Below, one piece after another: positions 15,545 to 62,870 of a stretch of DNA of 64,000 bases (its first letter is position 1; every line of letters begins with the position of its first letter). Source of the stretch: Falsiruegeria mediterranea M17 (GTDB lineage: Bacteria; Pseudomonadota; Alphaproteobacteria; Rhodobacterales; Rhodobacteraceae); assembly GCF_900302455.1 (NCBI RefSeq), contig NZ_ONZG01000014.1, forward strand, positions 1 to 64,000, read 5' to 3'. The notes under the pieces were generated by a model. The model searched no databases and had not been told where the DNA came from. It saw only the letters and a list, made by a program, of their open reading frames with translations. Made by a program: the position numbers and the translations under genes.

Positions 15545-15557
15545 GGTGTCCTCTCCC

Positions 15558-16412: not shown

Positions 16413-16505
16413 TGCCTCTCCTCCCTTCAGCAATTTTCTGGCTGAGCGAAAGGCTGCATGGCGCAACTGCAGAAGGCTTTAAATAACGCTTTGTTTTCGC
16501 GTGTT

Positions 16506-22266: not shown

Positions 22267-23094
22267 ATGCCAACACAGGTTTTGATCTACAAAGACCCAG
22301 TTCCGCTAAACGCGCAGAACCATGCAGAACTTTGCATTAAGCCAGGAACCAGTTTTCAGTTTGCCGCCAGTATCAATTCGGTGCCCTTGACCGCCGCGGA
22401 ATTTGCACAGGCATCAGCCAGCTATCCAATCGTTTTCACCGGTGAAGGAGACAACATCGTTCCTGCTGCTATACTTGGCTTCGGAAAAGAAGAGAATGTT
22501 TTCGTTGATGCTGAAGGAGGTTGGACAGGAAGTTATGTTCCGGCTTTTCTGCGTCGATACCCGTTCGTCTTCAGCGACGAGACAAAGGATGGGCAGCTCA
22601 TACTTTTTGTTGATCAAGCTTTTGAAGGCTGCAACTTTGAGGGGCGTGGTGAAAGGCTTTTTGATGTTGAAGGCAATCACACGGGCTATCTGAAAACAGT
22701 TCTGGGTTTCTTGCAGGAATACCAGGCGTCGTTTGCCAGAACGCAAGCATTCTGTAGTCGGCTTTCTCGCTTGGGGCTGCTTCGTCCAGCCGAGGCCAAT
22801 TGGCGAAACCCTGACGGAGAAGGGCAGCGTCTCGGCGGATTCCTGACCGTTGATCGGGAGGCCCTCAAAAACATTGATGACGGCGAGCTGCGGGAAATGT
22901 TCGCAAATGACGAACTGGAATGCGTGTATCTCCATCTCGCGTCCCTACGTCACATTGAGGCGATCGCGCAGCGTGCTGCGGACCGAGGCAGCGAAGCCCC
23001 GGAGGAGCCTACTGTTGCTCAGGCACTGGGGAAAATAATGGATGTTGCTGAACAAGGTGACGTTGCTATCGAACCCGGTGAAGACGAGGGGTAA
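22267..23094 (+). CDS. SapC-family protein, copy 1
   Basis: The 275-residue protein has the SapC-family core (SYPIVFTGEGDNIVPAAILG, GSYVPAFLRRYPFVFSD, CNFEGRGERLFDVEG). SapC was named from the Campylobacter S-layer secretion cluster; its biochemical role is unknown and it has no signal peptide, so it probably acts in the cytoplasm. The acidic tail (AEQGDVAIEPGEDEG) is distinctive. It lies 313 bp upstream of the giant gene and is a clear paralogue of the SapC protein at 60881, sharing the YVPAFLR-x-YPFV and EGRGERLF blocks. A chaperone- or targeting-like role for the giant protein is inference. Confidence 0.85.
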   Translation: MPTQVLIYKDPVPLNAQNHAELCIKPGTSFQFAASINSVPLTAAEFAQASASYPIVFTGEGDNIVPAAILGFGKEENVFVDAEGGWTGSYVPAFLRRYPFVFSDETKDGQLILFVDQAFEGCNFEGRGERLFDVEGNHTGYLKTVLGFLQEYQASFARTQAFCSRLSRLGLLRPAEANWRNPDGEGQRLGGFLTVDREALKNIDDGELREMFANDELECVYLHLASLRHIEAIAQRAADRGSEAPEEPTVAQALGKIMDVAEQGDVAIEPGEDEG

Positions 23095-23407
23095 GTGCCG
23101 CCTCCGGCCAACTAGTTAACTTGCGAATCACTGACGAAACACACGCTGGCTAAAGATGATTGATGATTTGAGCCGGTTATTTGTGATGGTCAGTGATCAA
23201 TTAACCTCGGCTCAGGCGGCATAAGAATCTGAAATTTTACGATTTTTTCTTGTTCTCCGCGGATTGCCTTTGATCTGAAAACAGTATGTTTCGACGTTGT
23301 GTGAAATGGTTCATTTTTCGTTTTGGCGATCTTCGGATAACATAAATTTCATCTACGCTTTTAGGTGTGTAGCGTTTCTTCGCACCGATGACCCCAGGTG
23401 ATGAACA
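23095..23407 (+). promoter_or_regulatory. Leader region of the giant gene
   Basis: This 313-bp non-coding gap should contain the promoter for the giant gene and downstream operon. It is more AT-rich than its surroundings. An interrupted hairpin spans 23169-23214 (TGAGCCGGTTA...TAACCTCGGCTCA), without a U-run; it might terminate sapC transcription or serve as a regulatory structure. An AGGTGA Shine-Dalgarno lies 7-12 bp before the giant gene start. I cannot assign a -35/-10 pair confidently. Confidence 0.4.
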
Positions 23408-26400
23408 ATGGCCTATCCGTTTGCAACGCGTGAGGAACGTGCAGTCTTCGATACATCTCCGTCCCGGAGGTTTAGGAGAGCGTTGTATCGATTGTTCAGA
23501 CGGTCGGTTGACAGTACATCCCGCGCAGCTCTGGAGCCAATGGAGCCTCGCATTCTTTTGGCTGCTGATCTGGCTCTGAATTATACTGCCACATCTGCGG
23601 ACGAAGAAATCACCGTTCGCATCGCGTCAGATGATACCGACAACGATGATTTGACTCCCGATGTGGCAGTCATTCAGATCCTGCGCATTGAAAATGACGA
23701 CAGCGAAACATTGCTGGCCCAGGGGGAACTCGGCCCCAACAATACCGTCAGTCTGGTGACTGGAGGAGGCGCTGATACCGTTCTGTTTGAGGCAACAGAT
23801 GCGCCGACCGATTCCATTCTAAGCCTGGATCTGACAATAGAGACAGGTGAAGGCAGCGATCGCATAGAAATCGATTCAACGTCTATCAACACGGTCCTGT
23901 CTGGAGCGTTCGAGCCAACGATTACTGCGACAATGGGCAACGGCTCTGGTGACGTTTTTGCCATGACCGGCTCATTTGATGGAGCTTTCGAGCTAAACGG
24001 TGTCGGGGCAGGTGGTGTTAACGACAACGTGGTCGATGTCACGTTCTCTGGAGCAGAGTGTGTCGAGGGTGGCACTGCTGACGATGTTTTCACCTTTTCG
24101 GCTGCAGCGGACTTCTCTCTGGGGATCGACGCGGGTGACGGAGACGATATGGTTATCGCTCCAGCTTCGGACCGTTCGACTGTTGAGGTGACCGGAGAAG
24201 GTGCAGTTTCAATCTTCGACGGTGATCGTACGACCAGCAAGTCGTTGCTGGCGAATGTAACCCAAGTCGAACGTTTGGAAGGTGGAGCGGGCTACGCGTC
24301 GCTCGACATATCTGGTTTCTCGGCGGTCAGTGTTGATTTGACGCAAAACACAGCTGACATCGATCCGGGGGCTGACGACGGTTCCGAATTTGAGGTTTTC
24401 AAATTTGATGCTGTTCTGGGCACCTCCGGAGCCGATACGCTTATCGGCGATGCTTTGGATAATACGCTGGTCAGCGGTGGAGGCGACGACAGTCTGTCCG
24501 GTGGCGCAGGTCGGGACACCTATGAGTTCGGAGCTACCGTTGGCGCGGTAACGATCCAGGAAAACGACGCGGCCTTGCAGGGCGAGATCGACACCATTGA
24601 TCTGTCCTCAACTGGTTTTGGTGTTCGCTTGACCATGGCGGATTCCGGCACGTTGGTCTTTGACGAAGTGACAGTCTCGGGGACGACTGTGACTTCGCAG
24701 GCGAATGGTTTCGGGCTGACGACGATTGGTGTCGAAAATATTCTCGTCAATGCTGCCCAAGAAAACATTTTAGACTACGCCGCATTTACAACCGGGGTTT
24801 CCGTCAGCCTTGGGCAGGAGATCGCAGAGGGACTTGGGACTGTTCGCGGATTTGACCACGTTATCGGTTCAAGTACGGCCGCCAACGAGATCTATGGCGA
24901 CAGTGGCGCAAACTTCCTGATTGGCGGTAGCGCGTCCGACACATTGGGATCCGGGGGTGGAACCGACACTTTGATGGGTGGTGACGAGATCGACCGCTTG
25001 GTTGAGCGGTCCGACGCCAGCATGACCCTCACGGATACGCAGATCACAATCGGGTCGACGGTTTCGACGCTAGCCTCGATTGAAACTGCGGAATTGATTG
25101 GCGGCCTCTCGGAAAATGTTCTGTCGGCGTCTGCTTTCACGCTGGGTGGCGTAACGCTGGACGGTGGTTTCAATGTTTACTTGGATCAACTTAATGGTGG
25201 TTCCGGGCTTGGGACAACTGACGAAGACACAATAAACTTGGCGACCGCCTTCGACACACCGCTGACAAGCCTGAATCAGGGTCGGGGTGTCGACATTCAA
25301 ACGGGCACTGACTTCACGATCCAATTGGCAACGGGCGGATCAGATGAATTTGCAGTAGACCTTGATGGTGCCACGACGGTTGCGGAAGTGTTCACAAAAA
25401 TCCGTGAAGCTGCGGCGAGCGAAAATTTCGACAGTCGTTTCCGGGTTGAGCTGAATGCCAATGGGACCGGGATTTCCTTTGCGGATTCTACAGGCGCGAC
25501 GCTGACACGGGACATGACCGTAGTCGCCGGAAGCAGCCGTGCAGCCTATGATCTGGGTCTGATACCGGATCCGTCCGTGGTTTCGGTTAACATCCCCGTG
25601 CTTGACGACGGGTCGTTCTCACCAGGATTGGTTGGGGATGAAATATCACGCGTCGACGCGGATGTTACGATCACTCTGTCTGACGGGACAGTATTTGATG
25701 TCAACCTCAGCTCCGAAGCGACAGTTCGGGAGTTGATGACCACGATCTCCGATTTGTCCAACGATCTTGAGATGGAACTCAGATCCGATGGTCGGGGATT
25801 TGTTCTGACAGATAATTCGGGTGGCCTGGGGTCATTTACTATCGCAAACGCCAACAACAGCACCGCAGGTACTGTTCTGGGAATTGCTGGCACCGGGGCG
25901 GCAGGGGTACTCACCGGAACGCAGATTGTGGCGGCTGGGTCCGAGTTGGATGGGCGTAGTGACGACGACACGCTGTTAGGCACAGTCATGGCCGACGTCT
26001 TCATTGGCGGTGGCGGCAGCGACTCTATCGTTGGCGGCTCGGGTGACGACACCGTATTCGCTCTCAGAGACGATGATATTGTACTCACCGACTCGTCGAT
26101 GACTGTCGCAAGTGTCGGTGAAAATGATAGCTTGTCCGGTATCGTCGCAGCCAACCTGACAGGTGGGGATTCAGACAACGAATTTGACGCGTCCATGTTT
26201 ACAGGCAGCGTGACAATGGACGGTGGAATTGGTGATGATACGCTGATCGGTGGATCAGGAAATGACCAGTTTACCGGAAATCGCGGTATCGACTCCATTG
26301 TGGGCGGTATGGGCGACGATAGCCTTGTTGAGCTGGGCAATTCGCGCTTTATTCTTGACGATACAAGTATTGATCAAGGCGAAGGCGCCACAGAAACGGC

Positions 26401-47400: not shown

Positions 47401-50400
47401 CGTGGTTACGGTGTCGGCGTCCGGTGCGATTGTGGACGAAAACGGCAGTCTGTCGAACATCGATGCTTCCGGGGCAGCTTTGCATGCTACTCATATCGGT
47501 GAGGACAGCAACGCGTTGAACACCCAGCTCGGGAACCTCGAAGCGGAAGCCCGGACTGGAGGAATTTGGATAGCGAATGTTGGAAATCTGCGGATTGGTG
47601 GATCTTCAGCAATCCTGAATGGCTTGTTGGCCGTTGAAGAAGTGGACGTTGCTTCAATTGGAAACATCACTGTAGACGAAATGGTTGAGGCGACAGGAAC
47701 AGATGCTCCGATCCTCTTGCATGCTTCGGGGACTCTGGCGCTGTCAGCGCTGTCGCGCATCCTGACAGTTGAAGGTGGTATCGACCTAGAAGCCGGTTTG
47801 GATATCGCCGTTGGAGCAGGTGCTCTGGTTACTGTTAATAACGGTGCGCGTGGGGTTCGAATGACGGCTGACGCGCAGCGAAATCAGGTAGGTTATCCGA
47901 CAAGCGACGGTCAGGGCGCTATTTCGATGGATGACGGTAGCGTAGTTGATGCCGCAGAAGGTTTGATCGAAGTATTGGCCCCACAGAACGTGACCGTCTC
48001 ACTGTTGCGGACAACGGGTGATGTGTCCGTTGTTTCTGACACGGGATCCATTTTGGATGCTGACGTGGATGGCGGTACAGATATCGAAGCAACCAATCTC
48101 ACTCTTTCAGCGGGTAACTCCATCGGGACGGCGGCGAATCCGCTGGAAATCGATTCCAACACAGGAAACGCCTACCTGAATCTGATTGAGGCAACCAACA
48201 ATGTCTATCTGGTCGAAGTTTCGGGGCCATTGCGCCCAGGGACGGTAACAGCTCAAAATGGAGTTGCGTCGGTTCAGGTCCGCGACAATGCGGGGACTGG
48301 CGACGATCTGCTTCTGGACCCGGCGACCAGAATTCAGGCCGGAACGGACATTTTTGTTGTTGCCGGTGATGATCTTGCACTTGCAGATGGCGGACGTCTT
48401 GATGCAGGTGTTTCGGTTTTCGTCGGCGCTGACCTTCCGTCCGAAGATGCAGATCCGGGCAATGGTGCTGCGGTTCTATTGGCAGGCTCCATTGCTGCGC
48501 CGGTGATCAGTGTACAAACAGGTGACGACGAGGACTCGATTACTCTCGATAGTCCAGAGTTCACTGGCGCGGCGACTGTGTATGGCGGGGCTTCGAACGA
48601 TGTGATCACAGTGTTGCGTCTGCAAACCCAGCAAACAAGTGACAGCCTGCGTGTTGAAGGTCAGGCGGGTGACGACGAAGTATTCGTGACCATCTCTGAT
48701 CAGGGTTCGAACTACCTGATCGATGTCGTCAGCGATGGGTTTGCCACAAGCGATCTGTTGACAATCTATGGTCTTGATCGGGCGGACGCGGGCGACAACT
48801 TCTTGTTGCGCGCAGCCGAAGATACCGTAACCAACGGCACCGCCTTTGCCGCGGCGCTTCGCGAAAATGATAATGTTGAACGGGTTAACTACGGTAAATC
48901 ACTTGACCACCTGGTTCTGGAAACCTTGGACGGTGATGATACCGTCTCGGTGGATGACAACTGGACGGAAACAACCATCCGTCTCGGCGAGGGTTCTGAT
49001 ACTTCGCAGGTGGGGCAAATCTTCAAGAGTGAACGCGACGCTGCAGCCAATGTTGCCGCTACGGACGAATTTGAAACCATTGCAACGACGCGCGGCTTTT
49101 TGTCCAACGGCATAAGCTTTGCAACCGTAATTGAAGGCGAGAAGGGAGAAGATGTTTTTGTCGTCTTCCGGAATACCGCTGAGTTGACGCTTCGTGGCGG
49201 TGACGATGACGATCTATTCGTCGTGCGGTCGTTTGCTGAAGAAGGATCCTTTGAATCGGATGTGGATGCCGGTGAAGGATTTGACACGGTTGAATACGTG
49301 TCGAATGCCACCGTGAATGTGAACGGCGGTGCAGGCATAGACACGTTGCGTTTGATTGGGACCGAGTTCAGCGATGAATACCTGATCACGGCGACCAAGG
49401 TCACAGGCGCAGGTCGCGAAATTACATATGACGAAATTGAAATTCTCGAAGTGGATGGGGCAGAGGGCGACGACACCTTCTTCGTGACGTCCACCGGAAC
49501 TTCGGTGACGGAAACACGACTGTACGGCGGCCTGGGCAGCGACAACTTTGAAATCGGTGGGGATTACGCCGGTGTAGAAGGCGCTGACAAGCAGATGTTC
49601 CAAGGGGAAGGGCCGCACACAGTTGCTGCGATCCAAGGACGCCTTATCCTAGATGGATTTGGCGGAGATGGTTCAATCACCGGTTTGGGTGAACCGGTTA
49701 TGTTGCCCGGTGAAACCAGCGATCTGGCGTCCACGGGGTCTGTTCTGTCCTTTGATGGCAGCTTGAGTGTTGTTTTCGATGCGATGACGGTTCCGGCGAG
49801 CGAACTGTATGACTACATCAATGCAACGGACGGTGTTGATGAAATCTCTGATCTGGTTGGCCTGACTATTGAGATTTCGGCGGGTCCCGGATTGCGACGG
49901 TTCTGGCGTATTGCTGAAATCTCCGAAGACAACGGAATTGCTTCGCTGGTTCTGGAACGGCCTTCTGGTACCGAAGCGAATTCGGAATTGCCGGATGCAA
50001 CCAGCAGCTATGCCATCACACGGGCGTCAGCCAATTTCTTTGTTGATGAAGCGTTTACGGTCGATCGATTGACCATCTACGACGATGGCAATTCGCTCAG
50101 CAGCACAGGCGGAATTAGAAGTGCTTCGACTTCGTTGACGCCTTCGGACGTGATCAACGTGTACGGGCTTGGAATGGGTGCGGAAGGGATCGATTACGGT
50201 TCCCTTGAAGCGGTGGAAATTCTGCTTGGCAGTGGCGACGATACCTTTGAAGTCACTACAACCCAGAATGGGTCTATTACTGCTGTCCACGGTGGCGGCG
50301 GAAACGATCACATCACGGTCACGGATCGCGGCACAACGGAACAGAAGTTTGACCGCTTTGGAGAATTGGTTGCGACGCTCGCTGCACCTTTGGTGGTGTT

Positions 50401-53400
50401 CGGTGATACGACGGCGAGCGGTGAGCGGTATTCTGACGAAAGCACTGCAATCAACCCGGGATTTGGACGCGCGGGTGTTCAGGCTGGCAACGACACGATT
50501 GTTGCAAATGGCCCAACGGACACTCTTATTGTTTTCGGCGGGGCTGGAAATGACAGCATCGTTGGCGGCATCAGCGGTGACAAGCTGGCCGGGGGCTCCG
50601 GAGATGACACGCTGGTCGGCAACGGTGGTGTTGATATCCTTTACGGGGACAATGGGATCAATCTTGATCTGGAAGCCCGTATCGCAACCATCACCTGGGA
50701 GAACGAAGGACAAACCGAAGTAGCAGGCGATGATCTGACCCAGGCTGGTTCAGATGAACTGTTTGGCAATGTTGGCAATGACTTCATCTTTGGCGACTTT
50801 GGTGAAATCGTTCAGGGTCCTGGTGTGGATCCGCTGCTTACAAACGATCAGGTTCAGATCGCTCGAACCCAAAATGTTGATGTATCCGGCGATGATACCG
50901 TTTTCGCGGGTAGCGAAGATGACGTTGTATTCGGCGGAGGGGGCGGCGATCAGTTGGTTTCTGTTTCCGGTCAGAACATTTTCATCGGCGATGGTGGTCA
51001 AGTAGCGTTCAATCCCTCTGAAACCGTCGTTCAAACTCTGGACGGTGCCATCGGTGGCAATGATACTGTTCTGGGCGGTATGAATGGAGACACCGTCCTT
51101 GGTGGCGCAGGCGGAGATCAACTGATCACTTCTGACGGGGACGACCTGAACCTTGGTGATCTGGGTATTGTCACAATTTCTGCCTCGTCCGTTTCGGTGA
51201 GCAGCCAGCACAGTGATGTTTCGGGCAACGACACCATCGTCAGCGGCAATGATCGCGATATCAATGTCGGTGGTACTGGCTCCGATTTCATTAGTAGCGG
51301 AGATCAAAGCGACATTGATCTGGGTGATCATGGTACCGTAGTGGTAACCGCATCCGGCGTCGCAATCGAAACCGCTTTGCCGGGCATTGGCGATGGAGAC
51401 GAATTGATCTCTGGTGATGGTGCGGATGTTCAAATTGGTGGCTTTGGGGCCGACACAATCTTTGGCGGGCAGGGCGATGATCTGGCTCTTGGCGATGCAG
51501 CGCGTGTGCAGCTGCTCGGAAATGTGCTGGTGCTTGCCGAAACAATCGAAACGGCGTTAGCGTTTGATGATCGAATTTTCGGTCAGTCCGGTGATGACAT
51601 TGTTATCGGCGGTAGCGGGAATGACCTGTTGGACGGTGGTTTCGATCGTGATCTTGTTCTGGGTGACAATGTATCGCTGGATCGGCGAGGAGATCTGGGC
51701 AGTTCTGTCTGGGCTCGGTTCCGTACTCTTTCCGACGGTGAAATCTATGATCCGACGATCGCACCTGGACGCGACGGCGAAGTGAAGATCACCGAAACCA
51801 ATCAAGCTGATCCGGCTTGGAACGTGCCAGGAGAGCCATCGTGGGCGACCTTCCTGGGCGAAGGCGCCGGCGGTATTGGAATAGAGTTCCTCGACGTTGA
51901 TGCCGGAAACGACCAAATCGCGGGTGGTGGCCACAACGATGTCATTTTCGGGCAACTGGGCAACGATACCATTCAAGGTGATGGTAGTATTGGTGATGTT
52001 TTGGTGGATGCCTATCGAGCCGAAGACGGGACGCTCGTGGTTGTGGCCTCAAGCGAAGCGTCAACTGATGGCGACGACTATATCGAGGGTAACAGCGGAT
52101 CTGACGTAATCTTTGGCAACCTTGGTCAGGACGACATCGTCGGTGGTACATCATCACTCTTTGGCATCACCGAGAGTTCGCGCCGCAGTGACGGTTCAGA
52201 TCTGATCTTCGGTGGTGCTGGTACGCGAATTGGCCGCAATGACTTCGGGGATGAGACATTGCTGGCGGATGGTGCGAGTCTGTTCAACGATGACCCGCTC
52301 GGCGAGATCCACGCGAGAGACGCGGACACCATCCTTGGGGACAACGGCAACATTTACAGGCTGCAAGCTGCAGATGGCACTCCGCTTAGCTTTGCATATG
52401 ACAGCTATACCGGGGTTTCCGGTCTGAAAATCGCCGTTCGGGCAACCGAACTTCTTGATTACACCGCGGGTGGAGCGGACTTCGATCCGGTACGAGCTGC
52501 AACGGATCAAGGTGCCGCAGATGAAATTCACGGTGAAGGTGGCGATGATTTTGCGTACGGTATGACCGGTAATGACATTCTGTTCGGAGATGCTCAGAAT
52601 GATGATCTGATCGGTGGCTGGGGCCACGACTGGATCTCTGGTGGAACAGGTCAGGATGGTGTTCTGGGCGATGATGGTCGCATTTTCACGAGCCGAAATC
52701 TGGTTGGATTGGGTGAAGCTCTGTACGGAGTAGACCCGCTGACGGCAACGGATGTTTCGATCAGTATCCAAGGCCAGATCGGCGGCGTAACCATCTATGA
52801 AGACGGTGAATTGCTGAAATCTGTTAACCTGACGCCGTTCAACCCGGATGATCCGGTTGGCGACCAGCCGCTATGGGCCTCGGATCCGGACTTTGCCGAC
52901 GACGTTATCTACGGTGGACTTGGCAATGACTTCTTGCATGGCGGCGCAGGAGATGATGCGATCTCAGGCGCAGAGGCGCTGCCACTGGTGGGTGCTGCAG
53001 TGAACGGAGTGCTGTATCTGAGTGGTTTCGACTTGCCGGGCAATGCTGGTGGAATGTTGGGCTTTGACACGGACCCCGATCGTCCGCTCAAGTTCGCGGC
53101 ATATGACCGAAATGCATCGCAAGCGCGTATTAGTTACTCGGCTGATGGAATTGATGTGCCCTTCCTTCTGGATTTTGCTCCATTTGACGGTGGACCGCAG
53201 GGCATTCCGGTCGACGGTGAAACAGGTGCGCCTACGGACGGCGATGATCGGATTTTTGGCGATCTCGGGAATGACTGGATCGTTGGCGGAACAGGGCGTG
53301 ACTACATGATGGGGGGATATGGGCTCGACCTTATTAACGCCGATGATGATCCGCGTACCAATAATGTCGAAGATACCGATGGATCATACGCTGACTGGGT

Positions 53401-54001: not shown

Positions 54002-54101
54002 GGCGCTGGGTCTCTTTGCAGGGTAGATCTAAGCAAATGGTAGCTTTCGAGACGGACATTCCGAAGTCTTGCAGTTGGTTTTCTGACAAGGGCGTCATTG
54101 C

Positions 54102-55973
54102 ATGAATTTGCCGGACCCGAATTCTATTCCGTCGACGACGGAAACGACCACTCAAACGGGCAACGGAGCGGTCGAAGTTGTTAGCTTTGCGTCTGCCTCG
54201 CCTGCATGGCAGGACCTGGGCACCAGGGACCCAGAAAAATTTGGCGACGCGTGGTTGCGTCTCTTTTGTTCTGCGACACCAGAGGTTTACGCAGCCCGGT
54301 TGCTGCTGCGGCGACCGGGTGAGGGGTTGGCCCGCGTTGCTGAGTTTAACTCCTTTGAGGATGACCAGTTGTTATCCTCATCCGTCGAAGCCGCCGTTAC
54401 TCGCAAATCTGGTGTAGCCCGACAGACAGACGAAGGCATGCTTGGCGCCTATCCTGTGGTTGTCGATGATCGGGTTCATGCGGTTGTTGCAGTTCTTGCC
54501 GAGGAAGGTTTGAGCAGTGAAGCGTTGCTTGCCCGCGTTCGTTGGGGCGCGGGTTGGTTACGGTCTTTTGCGCTGGATGCCTTGCGCACGGATGACAAGC
54601 CGAGTCTCGAACGTGCCCGATTGGCCATGGAAATGCTTTCCGGGGCTTTGGATGAAGCCAAATTCGATGCAGCGGCGCGCCGGGCTGTGACTGAGATTGC
54701 TCATCTTGGGCAATGCGATAGGGCGGCAGTCGGTTTCAGGCGTTCTGGTCGAGCTCGGGTCGCGGCTATCTCGCATACCGCGCAATTCGGACGGCGAATG
54801 GATCTTGTGCGTAGTGTTGCAGCCGCGATGGATGAAGCTTTGGAACAACAAGCCACGCTTCTTTGGCCGCTCAGCGATCCGGCCACTTCGCAGATCACTC
54901 GGGCGCAACAGGCGTTGTCCCGCGTTTCGGATGGTGCGCAGATTCTAACGATACCGGTACTGTCCCGTGGGCGGTTTCGGGGGGCCTTTACTTTTGAACG
55001 CCAAGCTGGTGATCCATTTGATCAACCGACGATCGATTTACTTGAAGCAGCCGCTGGATTGACCGGCCCTATCTTAGAAGAACTGAGACGTAACGACAGA
55101 TGGCTCATCTCAAAGTCTCTGGAAAGCTTGTTAGGGGTTTTCACAGCTTTCTTTGGAAAGGGGCATCTGGGTCTCAAACTGACTTCGATTGTACTGCTTG
55201 GACTAGCTGTCGCCTTTAGCCAGATTACCACCACTTACCGAGTTGCCGCTGACGCGGTTCTTGAAGGGCGCACGCAAAGGGCGCTGATCGCCCCATTCGA
55301 CGGGTTCGTGGCTGGCGCCGATAAGCGGGCGGGCGATGTAGTTTCGCACGGGGAAATTTTGGCTCGATTGGACGATCGTGATCTTGCTTTGGAACGGCTG
55401 AACTGGGTTGCGGAAAGACGGCGGGCTGAACTGGAATATGCAACCGCGGTAGGAGAGCGAAACAGGTCACGATTGAATATTCTGAGGGCCAGAATTGAAC
55501 AGGCTGACGCGCAACTCGCCCTTATCGACGGCCAAATAGAGAGGGCTGAAATTCGAGCTCCGTTTGATGGTTTGATCGTCGCCGGTGATTTGAGTCAGTC
55601 CATCGGCGGGTCTGTGACACGAGGCGACGCGCTGTTCCGCATTGCGCCAGAGGGAGAGTACCGCGTGGCGCTATGGGTGGATGAAGCCCAAATTGAAGAC
55701 TTGGAAGTTGGCTCAGTCGGAGTTGTGGTTCTGGCTGCCCTACCAACAGAATTTTTCCCGATTGAAGTTTCTCGGGTCACCCCGGTTGCCGAAGTGCGCA
55801 ACGGGCGTAACATGTTTAGGCTTGAGGCGAAGCTTGAACAAAGTTCGGATCGGATGCGACCTGGGCTGGTTGGTGTTGCAAAAGTCGATGCCGGAGAAAA
55901 ACTATTGATCTGGACGTGGACTCGTAACCTGATCGATTGGACAAGACTGACATTCTGGCGTTTCTTCGGGTAA
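54102..55973 (+). CDS. GAF-domain-fused HlyD-type membrane adaptor
   Basis: This 623-residue protein opens the accessory operon 100 bp after the giant gene. Residues 1-165 are a poorly recognised cytoplasmic region; about 170-335 resemble a GAF domain (AVTEIAHLGQCDRAAVGFRR to FTFERQAGDPFDQPTIDLLE). One membrane helix follows at about 352-374 (LTSIVLLGLAVAFSQITTTY). The periplasmic part is a barrel-sandwich/HlyD adaptor: ALIAPFDGFVAGADKRAGDV, a coiled-coil hairpin at about 435-480, then AEIRAPFDGLIVAGDLSQSI and a C-terminal beta domain. A cytoplasmic sensor domain on an export adaptor could gate secretion or recognise cargo. It stops 6 bp before the M50 gene. Confidence 0.8.
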   Translation: MNLPDPNSIPSTTETTTQTGNGAVEVVSFASASPAWQDLGTRDPEKFGDAWLRLFCSATPEVYAARLLLRRPGEGLARVAEFNSFEDDQLLSSSVEAAVTRKSGVARQTDEGMLGAYPVVVDDRVHAVVAVLAEEGLSSEALLARVRWGAGWLRSFALDALRTDDKPSLERARLAMEMLSGALDEAKFDAAARRAVTEIAHLGQCDRAAVGFRRSGRARVAAISHTAQFGRRMDLVRSVAAAMDEALEQQATLLWPLSDPATSQITRAQQALSRVSDGAQILTIPVLSRGRFRGAFTFERQAGDPFDQPTIDLLEAAAGLTGPILEELRRNDRWLISKSLESLLGVFTAFFGKGHLGLKLTSIVLLGLAVAFSQITTTYRVAADAVLEGRTQRALIAPFDGFVAGADKRAGDVVSHGEILARLDDRDLALERLNWVAERRRAELEYATAVGERNRSRLNILRARIEQADAQLALIDGQIERAEIRAPFDGLIVAGDLSQSIGGSVTRGDALFRIAPEGEYRVALWVDEAQIEDLEVGSVGVVVLAALPTEFFPIEVSRVTPVAEVRNGRNMFRLEAKLEQSSDRMRPGLVGVAKVDAGEKLLIWTWTRNLIDWTRLTFWRFFG

Positions 55974-55979
55974 CTCATT

Positions 55980-58124
55980 ATGCGCACGATGTTTTCGCAA
56001 AACTGGTATCGTGTCGCCGAATTGGCGCCTCGCTTGCGTGGACATGTTCGAATTCATGATCATCAGTATCGCGGCGTAACCTGGCGCATAATCGAAGACC
56101 GCCAAGCGCAGCGGTTTCATCGATTGACGCCATCAGCATATTTCGTCGTTTCGATGATGGATGGTCAGCGGGTCATGAGAGAGATCTGGGACCTGACCGA
56201 AGCACGCTTTGGTTCCGAATGTCCCACTCAGGACGAAGTGATCCATCTGTTGGCTCAGTTGCACGGCGCCGATCTTATGATCGGTCGAAACTTGCCCGAC
56301 CTTGGTGAACTCGACAAGCGGGCATCCGATATCTCGCGGCGAACTTTGATGTCGCGCGTCAAAAACCCGATGGCCATTCGCCTGCCGATCTTTGATCCAG
56401 ATAAGTTTTTGTCGGCGACGCTTTCGTTGGTCGGTTGGATGTTTTCCCCAATCGGAGGTTTTCTGTGGTTGCTTTTGGTCATAGCGGGAACAGTGCAGGC
56501 AGTTCTCGTTTGGCCGGAATTGACAAACAACCTCTCAGATCAGGTGCTTTCTGTTCAAAACATTGCGCTCTTGTTGTTGGTTTATCCGATCGTGAAGGCT
56601 GTGCATGAGTTAGGTCATGCTTATGCCGTAAAGAAATGGGGCGGCGAGGTTCACGAAATCGGAATAATGTTTCTTGTTTTGCTGCCGGTACCGTATGTCG
56701 ATGCTTCGGCGTCACTCAGCTTCAGAGAGTGGTGGCGACGGGCCATTGTTGGCGGCGCTGGCATTCTTGTCGAAGTTGCTCTGGCTGCAGCAGCGATTTT
56801 GATTTGGGCGCAGATGGAGCCCGGACTGACCCGGGCGGCAATGTTCAACGTGGCTCTGATTGGTTCCATTTCTACGGTTCTTTTTAATGGTAACCCTCTG
56901 CTTCGGTTCGACGGATACTACGTATTCTGTGATCTCATCGGCATTCCAAATCTGGGTACAAGGTCCAACAAGTACTTGGGGTATTTGGTGCAGCGGTATG
57001 CATTTGGCATGGACGAAGCAGAAAACCCGGCTGTCGCGAGAGGCGAGAGAACATGGTTTGTCGTCTACGCGATTTCGGCATTCATTTATCGCCTGACCGT
57101 AATGCTCGCGATTGGATTGTTTGTGGCGACGAAGTTCTTCGTCGTCGGCGTGTTGCTTGGCATTCTCGTTGTCTTCAACATGGCTCTTCTGCCTATTCTA
57201 AAGTCGCTTTGGTTTGTGATCTCAGGACGCGCTGTGTCGCGGCACAGAACGCGTGCAGTAACGGTCACGTTTGGTGGAGCCGCGCTTTTGGTTGCTGGCC
57301 TGTTTCTACTACCTTTTCCTTATTTCACGGTTTCTCAAGGCGTAGTTTGGTTGCCTGAGAACAGTGCGGTCCGCGCGGGTACAGCCGGTACTGTTGCCGA
57401 AGTGATCGCGCAACCGGGTAGACCTGTAAAAGCGGGTGATCCGCTTGTTCGGTTGGAAGACCCGAGATTGGAAGCATCTCTGGAAGTACAGGAAATCCAT
57501 CTAAGAGGGTTAACGTTACAGCTCGCTGCAGCCGGCGTGTCGGATCCTGTTTCGGCCCGAATTCTGAAAGAAGAAGTCAATCGAGCCAAAGATGAGTTGG
57601 AGCGAATGCGGGACCGGCAGGAAGCTCTTGTGCTTAGAGCGCCACGAGGTGGCGCTTGGCAGCATCCACTGCCGGACGATCTGGTTGGAGCCTTTTTGGG
57701 CAGAGGTGCTGTGGTTGGACATGTCGTATCTGAACAGGACAGGAGGTTGCGTGTTGTCGTGGGTCAAGCGGACGTTGATCTTGTTCGAACCAACTCGCTA
57801 AACGTCGAAGTACGTTTGATTTACGATATGGAAGAAGTGATACCAGCTGTGGTGTTGCGAGAAGTGCCTGCGGGGGATCGCGAGCTCCCGTCTGCTGCCC
57901 TCAGTACTGCAGGGGGAGGGCCATTTGCCATTGATCCGAAGTTTGCGGATCGACCCCATGCACTTGAAAACGTCTTCATGTTTGATCTGGCGGTGGACTC
58001 TATCAACGCAGCTCTGTTGCCCGGTGCTCGAATCTACGCGCGTTTCGAACATAGCGATGCGCCGGTTGCAGAGCGTGTGTGGCGCTCCGTGAGACGGTTG
58101 TTCCTAAGGAACTTCAATGTCTGA
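55980..58124 (+). CDS. M50 site-2-protease-like membrane protein with PqqD-like N-domain and barrel-sandwich C-domain
   Basis: 714 residues in three parts. Residues 15-105 (YRGVTWRIIEDRQAQRFHRL, AYFVVSMMDGQRVMREIWDL, PTQDEVIHLLAQLHGADLM) resemble a PqqD/RRE-type winged helix that binds leader peptides. Residues about 150-440 are a multi-helix M50 membrane domain with intact zinc site HELGH (His209, Glu210, His213) and NPLLRFDGYY with Asp311. After about residue 455 comes a periplasmic barrel-sandwich with coiled coil (VRAGTAGTVAEVIAQPGRPV). Such M50-adaptor fusions occur beside GAF-HlyD proteins. Processing of the giant protein at its LEPR-XLL motif is an attractive but unproven role. The gene overlaps the SecA-like start by 8 bp. 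Confidence 0.8.
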   Translation: MRTMFSQNWYRVAELAPRLRGHVRIHDHQYRGVTWRIIEDRQAQRFHRLTPSAYFVVSMMDGQRVMREIWDLTEARFGSECPTQDEVIHLLAQLHGADLMIGRNLPDLGELDKRASDISRRTLMSRVKNPMAIRLPIFDPDKFLSATLSLVGWMFSPIGGFLWLLLVIAGTVQAVLVWPELTNNLSDQVLSVQNIALLLLVYPIVKAVHELGHAYAVKKWGGEVHEIGIMFLVLLPVPYVDASASLSFREWWRRAIVGGAGILVEVALAAAAILIWAQMEPGLTRAAMFNVALIGSISTVLFNGNPLLRFDGYYVFCDLIGIPNLGTRSNKYLGYLVQRYAFGMDEAENPAVARGERTWFVVYAISAFIYRLTVMLAIGLFVATKFFVVGVLLGILVVFNMALLPILKSLWFVISGRAVSRHRTRAVTVTFGGAALLVAGLFLLPFPYFTVSQGVVWLPENSAVRAGTAGTVAEVIAQPGRPVKAGDPLVRLEDPRLEASLEVQEIHLRGLTLQLAAAGVSDPVSARILKEEVNRAKDELERMRDRQEALVLRAPRGGAWQHPLPDDLVGAFLGRGAVVGHVVSEQDRRLRVVVGQADVDLVRTNSLNVEVRLIYDMEEVIPAVVLREVPAGDRELPSAALSTAGGGPFAIDPKFADRPHALENVFMFDLAVDSINAALLPGARIYARFEHSDAPVAERVWRSVRRLFLRNFNV

Positions 58125-60087
58125 TACGACCAGTCTTCATCTGCCGAAACCCAGGATATCACTGGCGCGACCCAAAGCGCCCAGCACACTTGATCGCTGG
58201 GTTCGATGGGCCAATGCACCGCTCATTGCAGCCGGTCATTCTTTGCGAGGCAAGTCTTACAAATGGGTCGCCCGACGTGCTTGTCTTTTGGAAGCAGAGC
58301 TCAGGAAACTAAGCGATGACGACCTGCGGATGCGTGCGACTGAATTCGGTTCCAAACTGCGGCGCAAGCGTAATCGGGCTGACTTTGCTGAATTGTCAGC
58401 TGTGCTGCGTGAAGTTGTTCGTCGCACTCATGGGTTCTTACTGAACCAGCGCCAAATCCAAGGAGGCGTTGCAATTTGGAGCGGGTGCATTGCCGAGATG
58501 GAAACCGGCGAGGGCAAAACGATCACTGCGGTTTTACCCGCAGCAGCCTGTGCGCTTGCCGGGGAACAGTCCCACGTCATTACAGTTAACGACTATCTGG
58601 CAAAGCGCGATCATGAAATTACGTTGCCAGTGTTTCAGTTTTTGGGTTTGAGAAGTGCTTTGGTTATTCGAGAAACACCACCAGATGACCGCTGGGACCT
58701 GTATCGAGCACCCGTCGTGTATGCGTCCAATACTGAAATCGCATTTGACCATCTACGAGACCGCACGGAAGCTGGTGCATCGACAGGTGCAGCACGAGCA
58801 GCAATTCTGACCGGTTCACCGCAAAACCGAAGTGGACCCCGTTTGCCAGCTCTGGATATGGCTATCGTTGATGAGGCCGACAGTGTTCTGATCGACGAAG
58901 CGCGTACGCCGCTTATTTTGTCTGGTGGCGACGGAGCTATGTATGACGAGGAAACTTGTGTCTTGGCATTAGAAGTTGCCAAGGGCTTGCGTGAAAGGCA
59001 CGATTTTCGCCTTGTTCCAGAGCGAAGAGAAGTTTCCATTCTTCCAGATGGAAAGGATCGCCTCGCCGCCCGGTTTTCAGCGCGCGATGATCGTTGGGCC
59101 AGTCAAGTTTACCGCGAAGATCTGATGAGAAAAGCCCTGTCCGCATTGTACCTTTATGAGTTTGGCCGAGACTATCTGTTGAAAGATGGCAAGGTTCAGA
59201 TCGTAGATGAGAACACAGGTCGGGTTTTTGAGGATAGAAGTTGGAGTATGGGTATTCATCAATTGATCGAGGTAAAGGAAGGCACAGAAATAACACCGGA
59301 ACGAAGAGTGATGGGCCGTCTTACCTATCAGAGTTTGTTTGGACGCTATCACAGAGTTGGAGGCATGACGGGAACGGTGGTGGAAGCAGCTCGAGAACTC
59401 TGGCAAGTTTACAAGCTGACAACGGCGCGTATTCCCACAAATCGGCCTTCGCAAAGGTACTTCATGAAGGATCGAATTTTTTCACAAGATGATGAGCGCC
59501 TCACTGCCTTGCTGAACCGAGTCAGCTTTTTGTCGGACTACGGTACGCCAATTCTGATTGGCACCAGAACGGTCGCCGCATCCGAACATTTGTCATCAAA
59601 GCTGTCGGAGAGGGGGCTCGATCATGCTCTGTTGAACGCTCAGACAGATGAGTATGAAGCGGAAATTATCGCGAATGCGGGATTAAAAGGGCATATTACG
59701 ATTGCAACCAACATGGCGGGGCGCGGGACCGATATTAAGCTCAGTGACGAAGTGCGAAACATGGGCGGACTGCATGTGATATTGACAGAACGTCATGACT
59801 CCGGCCGAATTGATCGGCAGTTGCAAGGTCGGTGCGCGCGTCAGGGTGACCCTGGAACCTGCGAGGCATATCTCTCATTGGAAGATCAGCTCTTGGCTTC
59901 AGGTCGCTTGCCACGCATGCTGAAGCTTGCAAAATCCCTTGCAAAGGTTTTCCCATTGTCGCGGTCTGGTGTTTTGCGGATGGCTCAACGGCGAATTGAA
60001 CGGGCGCATGGAAAGGCCCGGTTTCAACTTTTGCAGTCCGAGGCAAACCTGGATCGAACTCTTGCCTTTACCGGAGTAAGAGAATGA
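58117..60087 (+). CDS. Minimal SecA-like translocation ATPase
   Basis: The 656-residue protein has the SecA motor core: QIQGGVAIWSG (Q-motif-like), Walker A METGEGKT with Lys134, TVNDYLAKRDHEI, DEADSVLIDEARTPLILSG with Asp252, RVGGMTGTVVEAARELW, TNMAGRGTDIKLSDEV, and the arginine finger region RIDRQLQGRCARQGDPGTCE. It ends shortly after AQRRIERAHGKARFQLLQSE, where the helical scaffold of normal SecA begins. The helical-wing and scaffold domains and the Zn-binding C-tail (roughly 250-300 residues) are missing. About 40 extra N-terminal residues are unlike canonical SecA. It is therefore an accessory motor dedicated to the neighbouring cargo and not the housekeeping SecA. Start and stop overlap neighbours by 8 and 4 bp. 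Confidence 0.88.
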   Translation: MSDTTSLHLPKPRISLARPKAPSTLDRWVRWANAPLIAAGHSLRGKSYKWVARRACLLEAELRKLSDDDLRMRATEFGSKLRRKRNRADFAELSAVLREVVRRTHGFLLNQRQIQGGVAIWSGCIAEMETGEGKTITAVLPAAACALAGEQSHVITVNDYLAKRDHEITLPVFQFLGLRSALVIRETPPDDRWDLYRAPVVYASNTEIAFDHLRDRTEAGASTGAARAAILTGSPQNRSGPRLPALDMAIVDEADSVLIDEARTPLILSGGDGAMYDEETCVLALEVAKGLRERHDFRLVPERREVSILPDGKDRLAARFSARDDRWASQVYREDLMRKALSALYLYEFGRDYLLKDGKVQIVDENTGRVFEDRSWSMGIHQLIEVKEGTEITPERRVMGRLTYQSLFGRYHRVGGMTGTVVEAARELWQVYKLTTARIPTNRPSQRYFMKDRIFSQDDERLTALLNRVSFLSDYGTPILIGTRTVAASEHLSSKLSERGLDHALLNAQTDEYEAEIIANAGLKGHITIATNMAGRGTDIKLSDEVRNMGGLHVILTERHDSGRIDRQLQGRCARQGDPGTCEAYLSLEDQLLASGRLPRMLKLAKSLAKVFPLSRSGVLRMAQRRIERAHGKARFQLLQSEANLDRTLAFTGVRE

Positions 60088-60884
60088 AATTTTTCTTAAC
60101 TGTCAGTTTTATGGCGTGCGCTTCCATTGCGGCGGCTCAAGATCGTCATGCTTGCGTCATTGACCCTTCGTTTACTGTAAATCTGTCCAGCCCATTCACC
60201 GGGTTGCTTGATGAAGTACTGGTCGACAGAGGTGATTGGGTTGAAGAAGGGCAAACTGTTGCCCGTCTGTGGTCCAGATTGGAAAGCGCGACGGTCGATT
60301 TGATGAAAGCGCGCGCCGAAAGCGATGCCGAGGTTGCCGCTCAGGAGGCGCGTCTTAGACTGGCTCAGCAAGCTCACGAACGTGTGGCGCAATTGTTCAA
60401 CCAACGCATCAGCACACGAGAAGCGTTGGAAGAGCGAGAAGCCGCTCTCGAAGTGGCCACCAGAGGGTTGTCGGAAGCGCAATTGCGTCAGCGTCTTGCT
60501 CAACTGGAGCTGCAGCGTGCCCAGATTTCAGTGGAGGATCGAAGTATTCGTGCACCGATCGCAGGACTTGTGACTGAGAGGTTCCTCAGTCCCGGTGAGT
60601 ACTTGAGTTCAGATGATTGGGTTCTGACAATCTCTCGGCTCGACCCTCTTTATGTCGAGGCTTTTGTACCGACCAGCCTTTATGGTGATGTTAAGATTGG
60701 TCAAATGGCGACCGTTTATCCAAATCTCGCAGGTTCGGAACCGCGGGACGCAAAGATCGTGATTGTGGATAGGGTTTTCGATGCAACTTCGGATACCTTT
60801 GGCGTTAGGCTGGAGCTTGCTAATCCAGATGCATCTCTTCCGGCAGGTCAACGTTGTGAAGTGGATTTTGGAGTTTCAAAATGA
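60084..60884 (+). CDS. Periplasmic HlyD/RND-type adaptor protein
   Basis: The 266-residue protein begins with a signal peptide (MKFFLTVSFMACASIAAA, cleavage before QDRHACV). The mature part is a membrane-fusion-protein architecture: a first lipoyl-like half (SSPFTGLLDEVLVDRGDWVE), a long coiled-coil hairpin (about residues 75-150), the second half (DRSIRAPIAGLVTERFLSPG), and a beta-barrel domain (PLYVEAFVPTSLYGDVKIGQ). It lacks a transmembrane anchor and would bridge to an outer-membrane factor, which is not encoded in this window. The ATGA overlaps on both sides show translational coupling with the SecA-like and SapC genes. Confidence 0.83.
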   Translation: MKFFLTVSFMACASIAAAQDRHACVIDPSFTVNLSSPFTGLLDEVLVDRGDWVEEGQTVARLWSRLESATVDLMKARAESDAEVAAQEARLRLAQQAHERVAQLFNQRISTREALEEREAALEVATRGLSEAQLRQRLAQLELQRAQISVEDRSIRAPIAGLVTERFLSPGEYLSSDDWVLTISRLDPLYVEAFVPTSLYGDVKIGQMATVYPNLAGSEPRDAKIVIVDRVFDATSDTFGVRLELANPDASLPAGQRCEVDFGVSK

Positions 60885-61639
60885 GCGGTTCAGAGGACGC
60901 AGACAAGAACAGCAGCCAGACGAACCAGCATCAACGTCAATTGATGATCTACGAGCGGGCGGTTCCGGTTACGTTTCGTCGTCACGCGGAACTTTCGGTA
61001 GATGTCGCGAAACACCTGTCAAGCGCAATTGATGTAAACGCAGTTCCAGTGATGTCTTCAGAATTCACCCGCGTCAGTCGAGAACTACCGATTGTGCTCG
61101 CGGGAGAAGGACCAGCGATGCCGGTTGCGGTGTTGGGGATCAAAGATAACCAAAATCTTATGATTGACGAAAAGGGTGAGTGGCGCGGCACATACGTGCC
61201 TGCATTTCTGCGACAGTATCCCTTTGTATTGGCGGGCCATTCTGGCAACGAAAAATTGACATTGTGCATCGACGAAGGATTTAAGGGACTGAACTACGAA
61301 GGTCGGGGAGAGAGGCTGTTCTCTCAAACCGGCGAGCAATCTGAATACTTAAAGGGCGTGGTGCAGTTTACTGAAGCCTATCAAAGGGACTTTCTCCGTA
61401 CCCGCAAGTTTGCGCAACGTCTTGAGGAGCTGGAGTTGTTGGAAACGGCCCATGCCAATTTCAATCTGAACAGCGGACCCTTTCGGCTACACGGGTTTCA
61501 ATCGATCAAACGTGAGAAACTCATGTCGCTGAAAGATAGAGAGTTGTTGGAACTCACGCGATCAAATGCTCTGGAACTGGTTTATGCGCAGCTTGCGAGC
61601 TTAGAAAACTTTGCAACTTTGGTTTCGCGCGTGGATTAG
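60881..61639 (+). CDS. SapC-family protein, copy 2
   Basis: This 252-residue SapC-family member has ELPIVLAGEGPAMPVAVLGI, GTYVPAFLRQYPFVLAG and LNYEGRGERLFSQTG at positions equivalent to copy 1. It lacks the acidic C-terminal tail of copy 1 and instead has a short polar N-terminal extension (SEDADKNSSQTNQHQRQ). No signal peptide or membrane helix is seen. It is the last gene of the coupled accessory operon (4-bp overlap with the adaptor gene), which ties the SapC family directly to this export system. Confidence 0.85.
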   Translation: MSGSEDADKNSSQTNQHQRQLMIYERAVPVTFRRHAELSVDVAKHLSSAIDVNAVPVMSSEFTRVSRELPIVLAGEGPAMPVAVLGIKDNQNLMIDEKGEWRGTYVPAFLRQYPFVLAGHSGNEKLTLCIDEGFKGLNYEGRGERLFSQTGEQSEYLKGVVQFTEAYQRDFLRTRKFAQRLEELELLETAHANFNLNSGPFRLHGFQSIKREKLMSLKDRELLELTRSNALELVYAQLASLENFATLVSRVD

Positions 61640-61665
61640 CAAACGTATTTCTCAGCTGGTCTGAG

Positions 61666-61683
61666 CGGGCCATTATTGGCCCG
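61666..61683 (+). terminator. Hairpin after the accessory operon
   Basis: CGGGCC-ATTATT-GGCCCG forms a perfect 6-bp GC stem 27 bp after the sapC stop, followed by ATTTG. The U-run is short. It may be the operon terminator, or belong to the end of the IS110-like fragment it overlaps. Confidence 0.45.
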
Positions 61684-61750
61684 ATTTGATGAGAGCGTTG
61701 ACGATTGTCACGAGTTTTCGGGCGACAGCAGTGATGATGCGGCGGATAGC
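61673..61750 (-). pseudogene. IS110-like transposase C-terminal fragment
   Basis: On the minus strand the stretch RRIITAVARKLVTIVNALIK-SGQ-stop resembles the usual IS110/IS1111 transposase ending (ALTACMRKLLTILNAM type). No upstream part is preserved. It is opposite in strand to the N-terminal IS110 fragment at 21144. Confidence 0.5.
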
Positions 61751-61949
61751 TGACGAGCAGGTTTCATTTGCGGACCTTACGCACGCGGGTGAGCAATTTC
61801 GCAATGTCCCATGAGATGTCCGGCGGCGTCGGAACAATGCCAAATGGGTTTCGTTTTGGCGACGGTGAGAAGCAGCCTCGTCGGTAGATGTCGAAATCAA
61901 CCGTGCCAGCGAATCCCGGCAGGGCATAGAAACATCGCGCGTAGGTCCA
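61751..61949. other. Right end of the island, no intact gene
   Basis: The minus strand of this 199-bp stretch can be read as a protein end (FSPSPKRNPFGIVPTPPDIS, then WDIAKLLTRVRKVRK-stop at 61764), which looks like a genuine but unrecognised C-terminus. No RepC N-terminal sequence and no terminal inverted repeat matching the left junction is visible. Confidence 0.35.
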
Positions 61950-61951
61950 TA
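61950..61951. other. Right island junction, TA
   Basis: The sequence TA-TAACCAGGCG resumes the split gene here. See the left junction at 18363 for the matching TA. Confidence 0.45.
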
Positions 61952-62825
61952 TAACCAGGCGGTCGACTACTATCTGGACGAAAAGCTGGAAGCGGACAAC
62001 AAGCCCAACAGCAAGCCGTACAGCGAAGGCAAGCACCATACCGGCAAAGAGCATTCGTGGGATGAAGGATTCGGTTACTTTGGCGCGGCTGCGCACAGCC
62101 TGGGTCTGAATGCCGAAGACAACTACAACATCGCCAAGAAAAAGGACCTTGCCGTTGCGGACGCCAATGGCGACGGCATGGTTGACCTGAAAACCGAGTT
62201 TGTCTTTGGCCCCGCCTATTATGCAGCTGGTGCCGACAAGTCGGGCAAGACCACTTGTATGACCGACATAATGACTGCCTTCATCGAAGGCCGTAAGCTG
62301 ATCACCTCGGCGCAGCGTGAAGACCTGACAGACGAGCAGCGTACCTAGTTGAAAGCCCATGCCGCGACCATCGAAGAGAACTGGGAAAAGGTTCTGGCTG
62401 AAGCCACGTTTAAATATGCAGGTTCGGTCTACAAGGACACCACCAAGATCGGTGAAGCCGCAGACGACGAAGCCCACGCCAAAGCGTACCGTGCCTACGT
62501 CAAGCATTGGGGGGAGTTGAAGGGCTTTGCCATGGCGCTGCAGAGCGGCAAGACCAACCTGGGCCGCACAGCCGTGCACCTGAACTGACTGATCGGTTAT
62601 GGACCGGTAACCACGGATGAAACCATCGTGTCGGGAATTGACGCGGACGGTAACTTTGTTCGCGACCGCAAGCTGTCGTGGAGCAGCTATCAGCTGAACA
62701 TGCTGCGTGTCCAGGAGCTGCTGTTGGACACTTTTGGTATCGAGGCCCGGGCCAACGACGCAACGGCTGAATTGGCCGGTCTGGTTCAAAGCCTGAACAC
62801 CGACGGTGGCGCAGAAACCGATTGA
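61950..62825 (+). pseudogene. C-terminal half of the DUF4856-like gene, decayed
   Basis: Reading from TAT at 61950 gives YNQAVDYYLDEKLEAD, then HTGKEHSWDEGFGYFGAAAH and DIMTAFIEGRKLITSAQRED, the second half of a DUF4856-type protein that continues the sequence ending at 18364. Two in-frame stops interrupt it: TAG at 62346-62348 and TGA at 62586-62588. The frame then runs to TGA at 62823. There is no start codon or signal sequence of its own. The extra stops imply relaxed selection after the insertion. Confidence 0.7.
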
Positions 62826-62870
62826 TATTGATCACGGGGTGGTCCGGGTTTGCCAGGCCACCCCATCAAC

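Follow-up and report, generated by a model that had tools for sequence, protein, structure and literature searches.

In the Falsiruegeria mediterranea M17 genome, we analyzed a stretch of 64,000 nucleotides (NZ_ONZG01000014.1, positions 1 to 64,000; hereafter the window), which is part of a 5.28-Mb genome and lies on contig C30 in our numbering. Positions 22267 to 61639 of the window encode a protein of 10,197 residues, hereafter the giant, and six accessory proteins, namely two SapC family proteins, GAF-HlyD, PqqD-M50-HlyD (M50-HlyD), a short SecA, and a periplasmic HlyD. We propose, with a probability of about 0.6, that this locus comprises a giant surface protein and a dedicated machine for its export. 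The link between an N-terminal tag of giants (LEPR-XLL or LExR) and M50-HlyD in two phyla, the duplication of the locus, the split of the tags into classes, and a PqqD-like domain in M50-HlyD support a machine which reads an N-terminal tag. A tunnel across the envelope is suggested by the HlyD parts of the locus and by the TolC of a sister form.

A preliminary description of this DNA gave seven open reading frames (ORFs), and all of their coordinates were correct when the ORFs were re-read. Its gaps and overlaps also agree with the successive spacings of 313, 100, 6, -8, -4, and -4 bases. The features of the locus are as follows.

22267..23094, + strand: SapC family protein 1, 275 residues (Pfam PF07277, E 9.9e-71; 53% identity to the SapC of the second locus, on contig C20)
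23408..54001, + strand: giant substrate protein, 10,197 residues with one cysteine (uninterrupted ORF, no internal stop)
23528..23578, + strand: N-terminal LExR tag LEPMEPRILLAAD, proposed export tag (NCBIfam NF012209, 25.2 bits)
38681..38938, + strand: matrixin-like metalloprotease domain inside the giant, HEMGHVLGLEH (PF00413, E 1e-7 to 3e-7)
49325..53428, + strand: C-terminal RTX calcium-binding repeats of the giant (PF00353, nine stretches; motif scan)
54102..55973, + strand: GAF-HlyD, with an N-terminal GAF part, a hydrophobic segment, and a membrane-fusion domain (Pfam GAF and HlyD_3; hydropathy)
55980..58124, + strand: PqqD-M50-HlyD inner-membrane protein, proposed tag reader and possible cleaver (Pfam, alignment, profile, model)
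56022..56273, + strand: PqqD-like domain, residues 15-98 of M50-HlyD (profile against the PDB: 3g2b, 5sxy)
56604..56618, + strand: HELGH zinc site of the M50 domain (HExGH alignment of relatives)
58117..60087, + strand: short SecA, 656 residues, with nucleotide-binding domain 1, the preprotein-binding domain, nucleotide-binding domain 2, and only the first part of the scaffold (Pfam, alignment, tree)
60084..60884, + strand: periplasmic HlyD (PF16576, E 2.8e-22; 40% identity to the C20 copy)
60881..61639, + strand: SapC family protein 2, 252 residues (PF07277, E 4.2e-63; 41% identity to SapC 1)

The giant is encoded by a real gene. Its C-terminal 2,673 residues are 97% identical in Tropicibacter sp. 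R16_0 (Roseobacteraceae), the closest named relative among the loci found (M50 protein 97% identical), and the C20 locus encodes a relative. The next longest ORF within the giant's stretch has 373 residues, so the 10,197-residue frame is beyond chance. RTX repeats are in the first and last parts of the giant, with the matrixin domain in the middle of the protein. The HExxH motif of this matrixin-type protease (38681-38938) is absent from the C20 paralog. The giants are poor in cysteine (one in 10,197 residues in the window, none in 8,209 in the C20 giant), which is compatible with passage in an unfolded state. Hydropathy analysis of the first 3,500 residues of the window giant gave no hydrophobic segment.

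The LEPR-XLL model NF012209 matches the window giant at 25.2 bits in the genome search and at 18.2 bits with the first 3,000 residues, passing the curated cut-off of 17. The Pfam model Planc_extracel (PF07595) matches the same residues (39-54) at 16.2 bits and the motif of the C20 paralog at 20.8 bits, both below the cut-off of 25.5. This planctomycete cell-surface signal, with the R. baltica consensus RRLxxExLExRxLLA, has been put forward as an export signal (PMC8567305, citing Studholme et al., 2004), and in one paper a Vibrio giant bearing the LEPR-XLL motif is taken as a possible pore-forming toxin. Our PF07595 search of 57 genomes (32 planctomycete genomes with an M50, 20 without, and five proteobacteria) gave matches in three genomes, all with an M50, a number too small for a direct test of the planctomycete signal. 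The stretch of up to 60 residues before the tag is basic: averaged over 48 N-termini, it has 21% lysine plus arginine and 8% aspartate plus glutamate, whereas the corresponding values for the body of the window giant are 5% and 13%.

Among ORFs of at least 1000 residues with a visible start in 97 stretches, the tag was within 150 residues in 29/31 low-cysteine ORFs, a count that includes one giant twice (L187 and L290), and in 1/13 cysteine-richer ones. With a slightly narrower pattern, it was found in 5/379 ORFs of 200-599 residues. The tag pattern was extended by one residue after L291 was seen, and the patterns were picked after the type A tags (see below) were seen, so the conservation of EPR is partly built in. 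The C-termini are mostly unlike one another, the last 200 residues being similar in 23/136 pairs of 17 giants. In the sample of 398 Pseudomonadota described below, the largest LEPR-XLL open frame has 19,427 residues (G469:C115:112865).

LEPR-XLL and relatives of M50-HlyD occur together in independent genome samples picked without regard to either trait (counts below are in the order both, LEPR-XLL only, M50 only, neither). Among 385 Alphaproteobacteria, the three genomes with LEPR-XLL, the host included, are all within the 21 with an M50 relative. In 398 Pseudomonadota, LEPR-XLL (E 0.001) was found in 41 genomes and an M50 relative (E 1e-30) in 89 (40/1/49/308, p 7e-29). The M50 scores of this sample are bimodal, with values of at least 511 bits in 37 genomes and otherwise at most 389. 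For these close M50 proteins the table is 32/9/5/352 (p 8e-34), i.e., 32/41 LEPR-XLL genomes against 5/357 others, and by genus it is 18/6/5/184 (18/24 against 5/189 genera). Of the 55 LEPR-XLL genes, 29 are on the same contig as an M50 gene and 25 are within 12 kb. In 149 Planctomycetota, with LEPR-XLL (E 0.01) in 8 and M50 (E 1e-20) in 32, the table is 8/0/24/117 (p 2e-6), or 7/1/3/138 (p 3e-9) for M50 scores of at least 560 bits; there are fewer independent events than counted, since G779, G811, and G872 are close relatives with near-identical tags. In all eight planctomycete LEPR-XLL genomes, the LEPR-XLL gene is far from the M50 gene, either on another contig (some contigs are short) or, in G872, 0.9 Mb apart. 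Gene order alone thus cannot account for the association. According to the preliminary description, co-occurrence with conserved synteny across phyla would support a system; the association was found in two phyla, with the genes standing apart in the eight planctomycete genomes.

The M50-HlyD protein has the zinc motifs of the site-2-protease family M50, HELGH and a distal NPLLRFDGYY, in both copies in the genome, and its Pfam Peptidase_M50 score of 25.2 bits is just below the cut-off of 27.2. HExGH and NGNPLL...D...Y are present in 19/19 aligned relatives, and HExGH in 50/55 further M50 proteins. According to hydropathy, the membrane segments are between residues 150 and 444. The PqqD scores in Pfam are 21.7 and 22.4 bits, just under the cut-off of 23.4, and a profile of residues 15-98 searched against the PDB gave PqqD structures as its top two matches (3g2b, E 0.0015; 5sxy, E 0.4). 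In the AlphaFold model of M50-HlyD (predicted local distance difference test, pLDDT, 80.9; predicted template modeling score 0.52), the PqqD-like region has strands followed by three helices, and the rest includes a membrane region made of helices and a membrane-fusion region resembling MexA-like proteins. A fold search with the model returned membrane-fusion proteins in all 50 rows listed and is therefore no test of the PqqD part; the profile search, which used that part by itself, is one. The PqqD-like part is readily detected in the high-scoring class of M50 proteins and in those of planctomycetes. M50-HlyD relatives that are 37-47% identical over nearly the full length are found on plasmids in Sinorhizobium, Ensifer, Rhizobium, Mesorhizobium, Methylosinus, and marine bacteria including Rhodobacterales; 17 Escherichia and 8 Citrobacter records match more weakly.

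The locus is duplicated in the host genome. On contig C20, HlyD and SapC are on one strand, and the giant (8,209 residues, with the LEPR-XLL motif), GAF-HlyD, M50-HlyD, and short SecA are on the other; identities between its accessory proteins and their window counterparts range from 37 to 53%. LEPR-XLL has two matches above the cut-off in this genome, which are the two loci, and a third match, at 15.8 bits, is below it. Scanning the GTDB genome collection with both M50-HlyD proteins gave 37 loci from alpha- and gammaproteobacteria, Desulfobacterota, and one planctomycete, L053 (L018, a near copy, and L053 were kept out of the family profiles). Most have the order GAF-HlyD, M50-HlyD, (SapC), SecA, HlyD. 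GAF-HlyD is upstream of M50-HlyD in 36/37; L053 has a weak match one gene away, and L039 begins inside the M50 gene. A giant or LEPR-XLL ORF is present in 26/37, upstream, downstream, or on the opposite strand, and 7 of the other 11 loci end at a contig end. LEPR-XLL was found in 30/34 genomes holding these loci and in 0/14 control genomes.

What stays constant is M50-HlyD, together with additional HlyD proteins and a substrate tagged at its N-terminus, and SapC and even SecA are optional. In the preliminary description, the locus was taken as one dedicated secretion and processing machine. The accessory set is conserved and accompanies LEPR-XLL giants across orders and phyla, as that view would have it, but there is no fixed part list: SapC is found in 13/37 loci and a SecA-like ORF in 32/37, the ATP site is lost in 4/34 SecA-like proteins, and the sister form has TolC and lacks SecA.

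Pfam assigned SapC, GAF and HlyD, M50 and HlyD (with a weak PqqD), SecA_DEAD, SecA_PP_bind and P-loop, HlyD, and SapC to the six accessory proteins, among which it found no ABC exporter and no SecY. Three window proteins thus carry HlyD domains, the periplasmic adaptors of type I systems. No NCBIfam model attains its cut-off for GAF-HlyD, M50-HlyD, short SecA, or SapC, so the accessory set has no curated name in NCBIfam. GAF-HlyD has a single hydrophobic segment near residues 354-378 in the hydropathy analysis, and the N-terminus of the periplasmic HlyD resembles a signal peptide as judged by eye from the sequence. The SapC AlphaFold model (pLDDT 75.7) had no PDB match at E 0.001 or better, and a SapC profile matched only an unrelated designed repeat protein in the PDB (E 0.069). 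In Labrenzia alba (L019:15046-17739), two uncharacterized ORFs and a radical SAM protein are inside the operon between HlyD and SapC, which may mean that some giants are chemically modified.

The short SecA is related to SecA structures with E 3e-112 and has the motor motifs GEGKT (Walker A) and DEAD (Walker B). Walker A is intact in 30/34 short SecA proteins, in a table that leaves out L018, L041, L047, and L050; L028 runs off its contig. The truncation is uniform. All placeable C-termini but that of L172 are at positions 659-671 of the host's housekeeping SecA (916 residues), which sits elsewhere, on contig C11. The SecA_SW domain spans 623-834 of the housekeeping SecA and is not reported for the window short SecA. 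About the first 50 scaffold residues are kept, and the wing, the two-helix finger, and the SEC-C tail are lacking. The claim that the system is neither a classical type I nor a standard Sec system is borne out by this architecture and by the accessory proteins, which include no ABC exporter.

The short SecA proteins are also of separate descent. In a tree made by a quick method, with several long branches and without the L045 fragments, L205, and L209, 33 short and 20 housekeeping SecA proteins are on opposite sides of one branch with support 100. Broad agreement with taxonomy is seen on the housekeeping side but not on the short side, suggesting that the short SecA was passed between lineages by transfer. 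The NCBIfam SecA2 models score the short SecA below their cut-offs (484 of 1085, 441 of 930, 421 of 725, and 349 of 1100 bits). SecA-like proteins without the ATP site stand at the motor's operon position in L033:11802-13265, L037, L046:12126-13913, and L171, with SecA reduced to its non-ATPase part. In Vreelandella azerica (L045:12253-14114), the short SecA is split in two ORFs and the LEPR-XLL frame of the genome has only 206 residues, which may reflect a decaying copy or sequencing errors.

The sister form of the locus, with a low-scoring M50, contains a TolC-type outer membrane efflux protein, a short HlyD, an HlyD of about 450 residues, and M50-HlyD, and has no SecA. The efflux protein adjoining the M50 was confirmed with Pfam in 3/3 ORFs tested and is also present in L171. 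The one HlyD of about 450 residues tested had no GAF match, and the one giant tested has DUF4347 and cadherin domains. In the stretches taken around L274, L275, L277, L278, L282, and L287, no giant was seen.

Sister-form giants have a tag variant (LExRxMFDGA), such as LEPRMMFDAAAV or LEQRILFDGAAA. The variant matches the M50 class in 43/43 distinct tags of the high-scoring class (A) and 12/12 of the low-scoring class (B). In class A, the second residue ahead of the motif is E or D in 43/43 tags, and the residue after LL is S (35), A (5), N (2), or C (1, in L106). In class B, D follows the LL-equivalent place in 12/12, and the acidic residue ahead of the motif never occurs. The count was scripted over 62 loci and 77 stretches, leaving out planctomycete stretches; the class was assigned from the M50 score of the stretch, or of the genome for single tags, with genomes having both counted as A. 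Twelve loci have no row in this count. A looser scan found a tag in eight of them, all consistent with their class, and none in L113, L116, L120, and L124. The planctomycete locus L244, outside the count, has both an intermediate M50 score (442 bits) and a mixed tag, LEPLEQRIMLDAV.

From these parts we infer the following export route. In the cytoplasm, the PqqD-like domain of M50-HlyD would recognize the LExR tag (E-x-L-E-P-R-x-L-L-S/A-A-D, behind a basic stretch). The short SecA, with its two nucleotide-binding domains and substrate clamp, would then push the cysteine-poor chain onward in an unfolded state. A conduit through the periplasm would be built from the periplasmic HlyD and from the HlyD parts of M50-HlyD and GAF-HlyD, and would lead to a TolC-type outer-membrane pore, which would be encoded by its own gene in the sister form and supplied from elsewhere for the window locus. 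Cleavage of the tag may be the task of the M50 site, and gating of the machine, in response to a small ligand, that of the GAF part. Outside the cell, calcium binding to the RTX repeats would fold the giant. The short SecA would be a natural motor; since SecA is absent or decayed in some loci, the motor could be replaced or shared.

A different use of the same SecA would be an accessory Sec route, in which the short SecA and ordinary SecYEG bring the giant to the periplasm, the tag is an odd Sec signal, and M50-HlyD and HlyD only pass on or trim the product. The sequence relationship of the motor to SecA and the Walker A kept in 30/34 proteins are in line with this route. However, the wing, two-helix finger, and tail are the parts that canonical SecA uses at SecYEG, and the short SecA ends before them. 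With no SecY among the accessory proteins, a giant whose first 3,500 residues contain no hydrophobic segment by hydropathy, and a sister form that manages without SecA, we consider this route unlikely. Alternatively, another exporter could secrete the giant, and the M50-HlyD, GAF-HlyD, and HlyD proteins could form a complex that cuts, anchors, or releases it on a signal, much like the Lap system with adhesins of type I secretion. A protease site and a GAF sensor in an envelope complex would suit such a role, as would the RTX repeats typical of type I substrates, but the SecA motor, the PqqD-like domain, and the TolC gene of the sister form are left unexplained, making this quite improbable. 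That the giant exits through a usual type I system whose genes lie elsewhere, and has its neighbors by chance, is hardly credible; RTX repeats are present, HlyD proteins are common, and the host genome was not searched for type I exporters, but chance does not predict co-occurrence in two phyla even where the genes are unlinked, a duplicated locus, or the tag-class split.

Several points weigh against the proposed dedicated export machine. The evidence is wholly computational, and no transport was observed. The sister form has no SecA, leaving its energy source unexplained; a SecA-like ORF is absent in 5/37 loci (L054 is cut by a contig end), and 4/34 SecA-like proteins have lost Walker A and B (L033, L037, L046, and L171). 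HExGH is absent from 5/55 M50 proteins. The PqqD match is below the Pfam cut-off and is weak or undetected in sister-form M50 proteins, so the proposed tag reader seems to differ between the M50 classes, as the tag does. No LEPR-XLL match was found in 5/37 Pseudomonadota genomes with a close M50, one of which (G580) has an adjacent tagged giant, or in 24/32 planctomycete M50 genomes. Related species within the samples make the p values too small, and no unrelated HlyD families were used as a control. The planctomycete clusters are mostly without an adjacent giant in the stretches taken. The preliminary description held that accessory genes commonly found without a giant would speak against a system; as adjacency, this is the case in Planctomycetota, with LEPR-XLL proteins elsewhere in 7/10 genomes with a close M50. 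Its term self-contained is not supported: the genes of the window that were examined include no TolC, a search that did not extend to the host genome.

Among known systems, the type I secretion of RTX adhesins (HlyB-HlyD-TolC) shares the HlyD adaptors, a cysteine-poor RTX giant, and, in the sister form, TolC. The window system differs from it in the conserved N-terminal tag, the M50 protease, and the SecA-type motor, and a filing under type I was dropped because no ABC exporter is among the accessory proteins and the common element of the giants is N-terminal. Accessory Sec (SecA2/SecY2) likewise has a second, divergent SecA adjoining a large surface protein. The SecA architecture and the scores far below the NCBIfam SecA2 cut-offs led us to drop this filing too, and no SecY2 was seen. 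Intramembrane metalloproteases of ribosomally synthesized and post-translationally modified peptides (daptide, YydH/LiaK type) resemble the M50 protein, with NF041824 matching residues 17-402 (E 2e-40). However, the score is 138.9 bits against a cut-off of 300, the window M50 is fused to HlyD, and the substrates are giants rather than small peptides. The tag is similar to the N-terminal motifs of LEPR-XLL (NF012209) and the planctomycete signal (PF07595), but the window matches to PF07595 are below the cut-off, and no machine is assigned to this signal in the parts of the literature searched. In PEP-CTERM/EpsH sorting, the tag is at the opposite protein end, and the proteins are unrelated to the window machine. 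There, too, tag and machine were identified by their shared occurrence (PMC1569441).

Promoter and terminator scans of 53900-62900 gave signals at or below chance, and neither Rfam models nor a tRNA scan gave a match in the window. The upstream genes (1368-16466) include those for a GMC oxidoreductase, an FGE-sulfatase-like protein, and a molybdenum hydroxylase operon with XdhC, with no visible tie to the export locus.

With the terms used, our search of open-access literature, which did not extend to subscription papers and preprints, gave no paper joining giant proteins with SecA, M50, or HlyD. The system was, in our judgement from this literature, not previously described. We lean slightly toward regarding it as an undescribed class of secretion system with N-terminally LExR-tagged substrates and a PqqD-M50-HlyD reader, present in Pseudomonadota, Desulfobacterota, and Planctomycetota, in one form with a cut-down SecA motor and in another with TolC and no known motor. 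Both the LEPR-XLL giants and the planctomycete export signal would then be served by this class of machine. Outside type I systems, the delivery of proteins of many thousand residues to the bacterial surface is poorly understood, and a tag and a partner protein that track one another across phyla are a directly testable pair. If the proposal is true, it would provide the machine for a planctomycete signal described two decades ago and a case of a SecA motor used without its SecY-facing parts, and many giants, with open frames of up to 19,427 residues, could be annotated as clients of one system.

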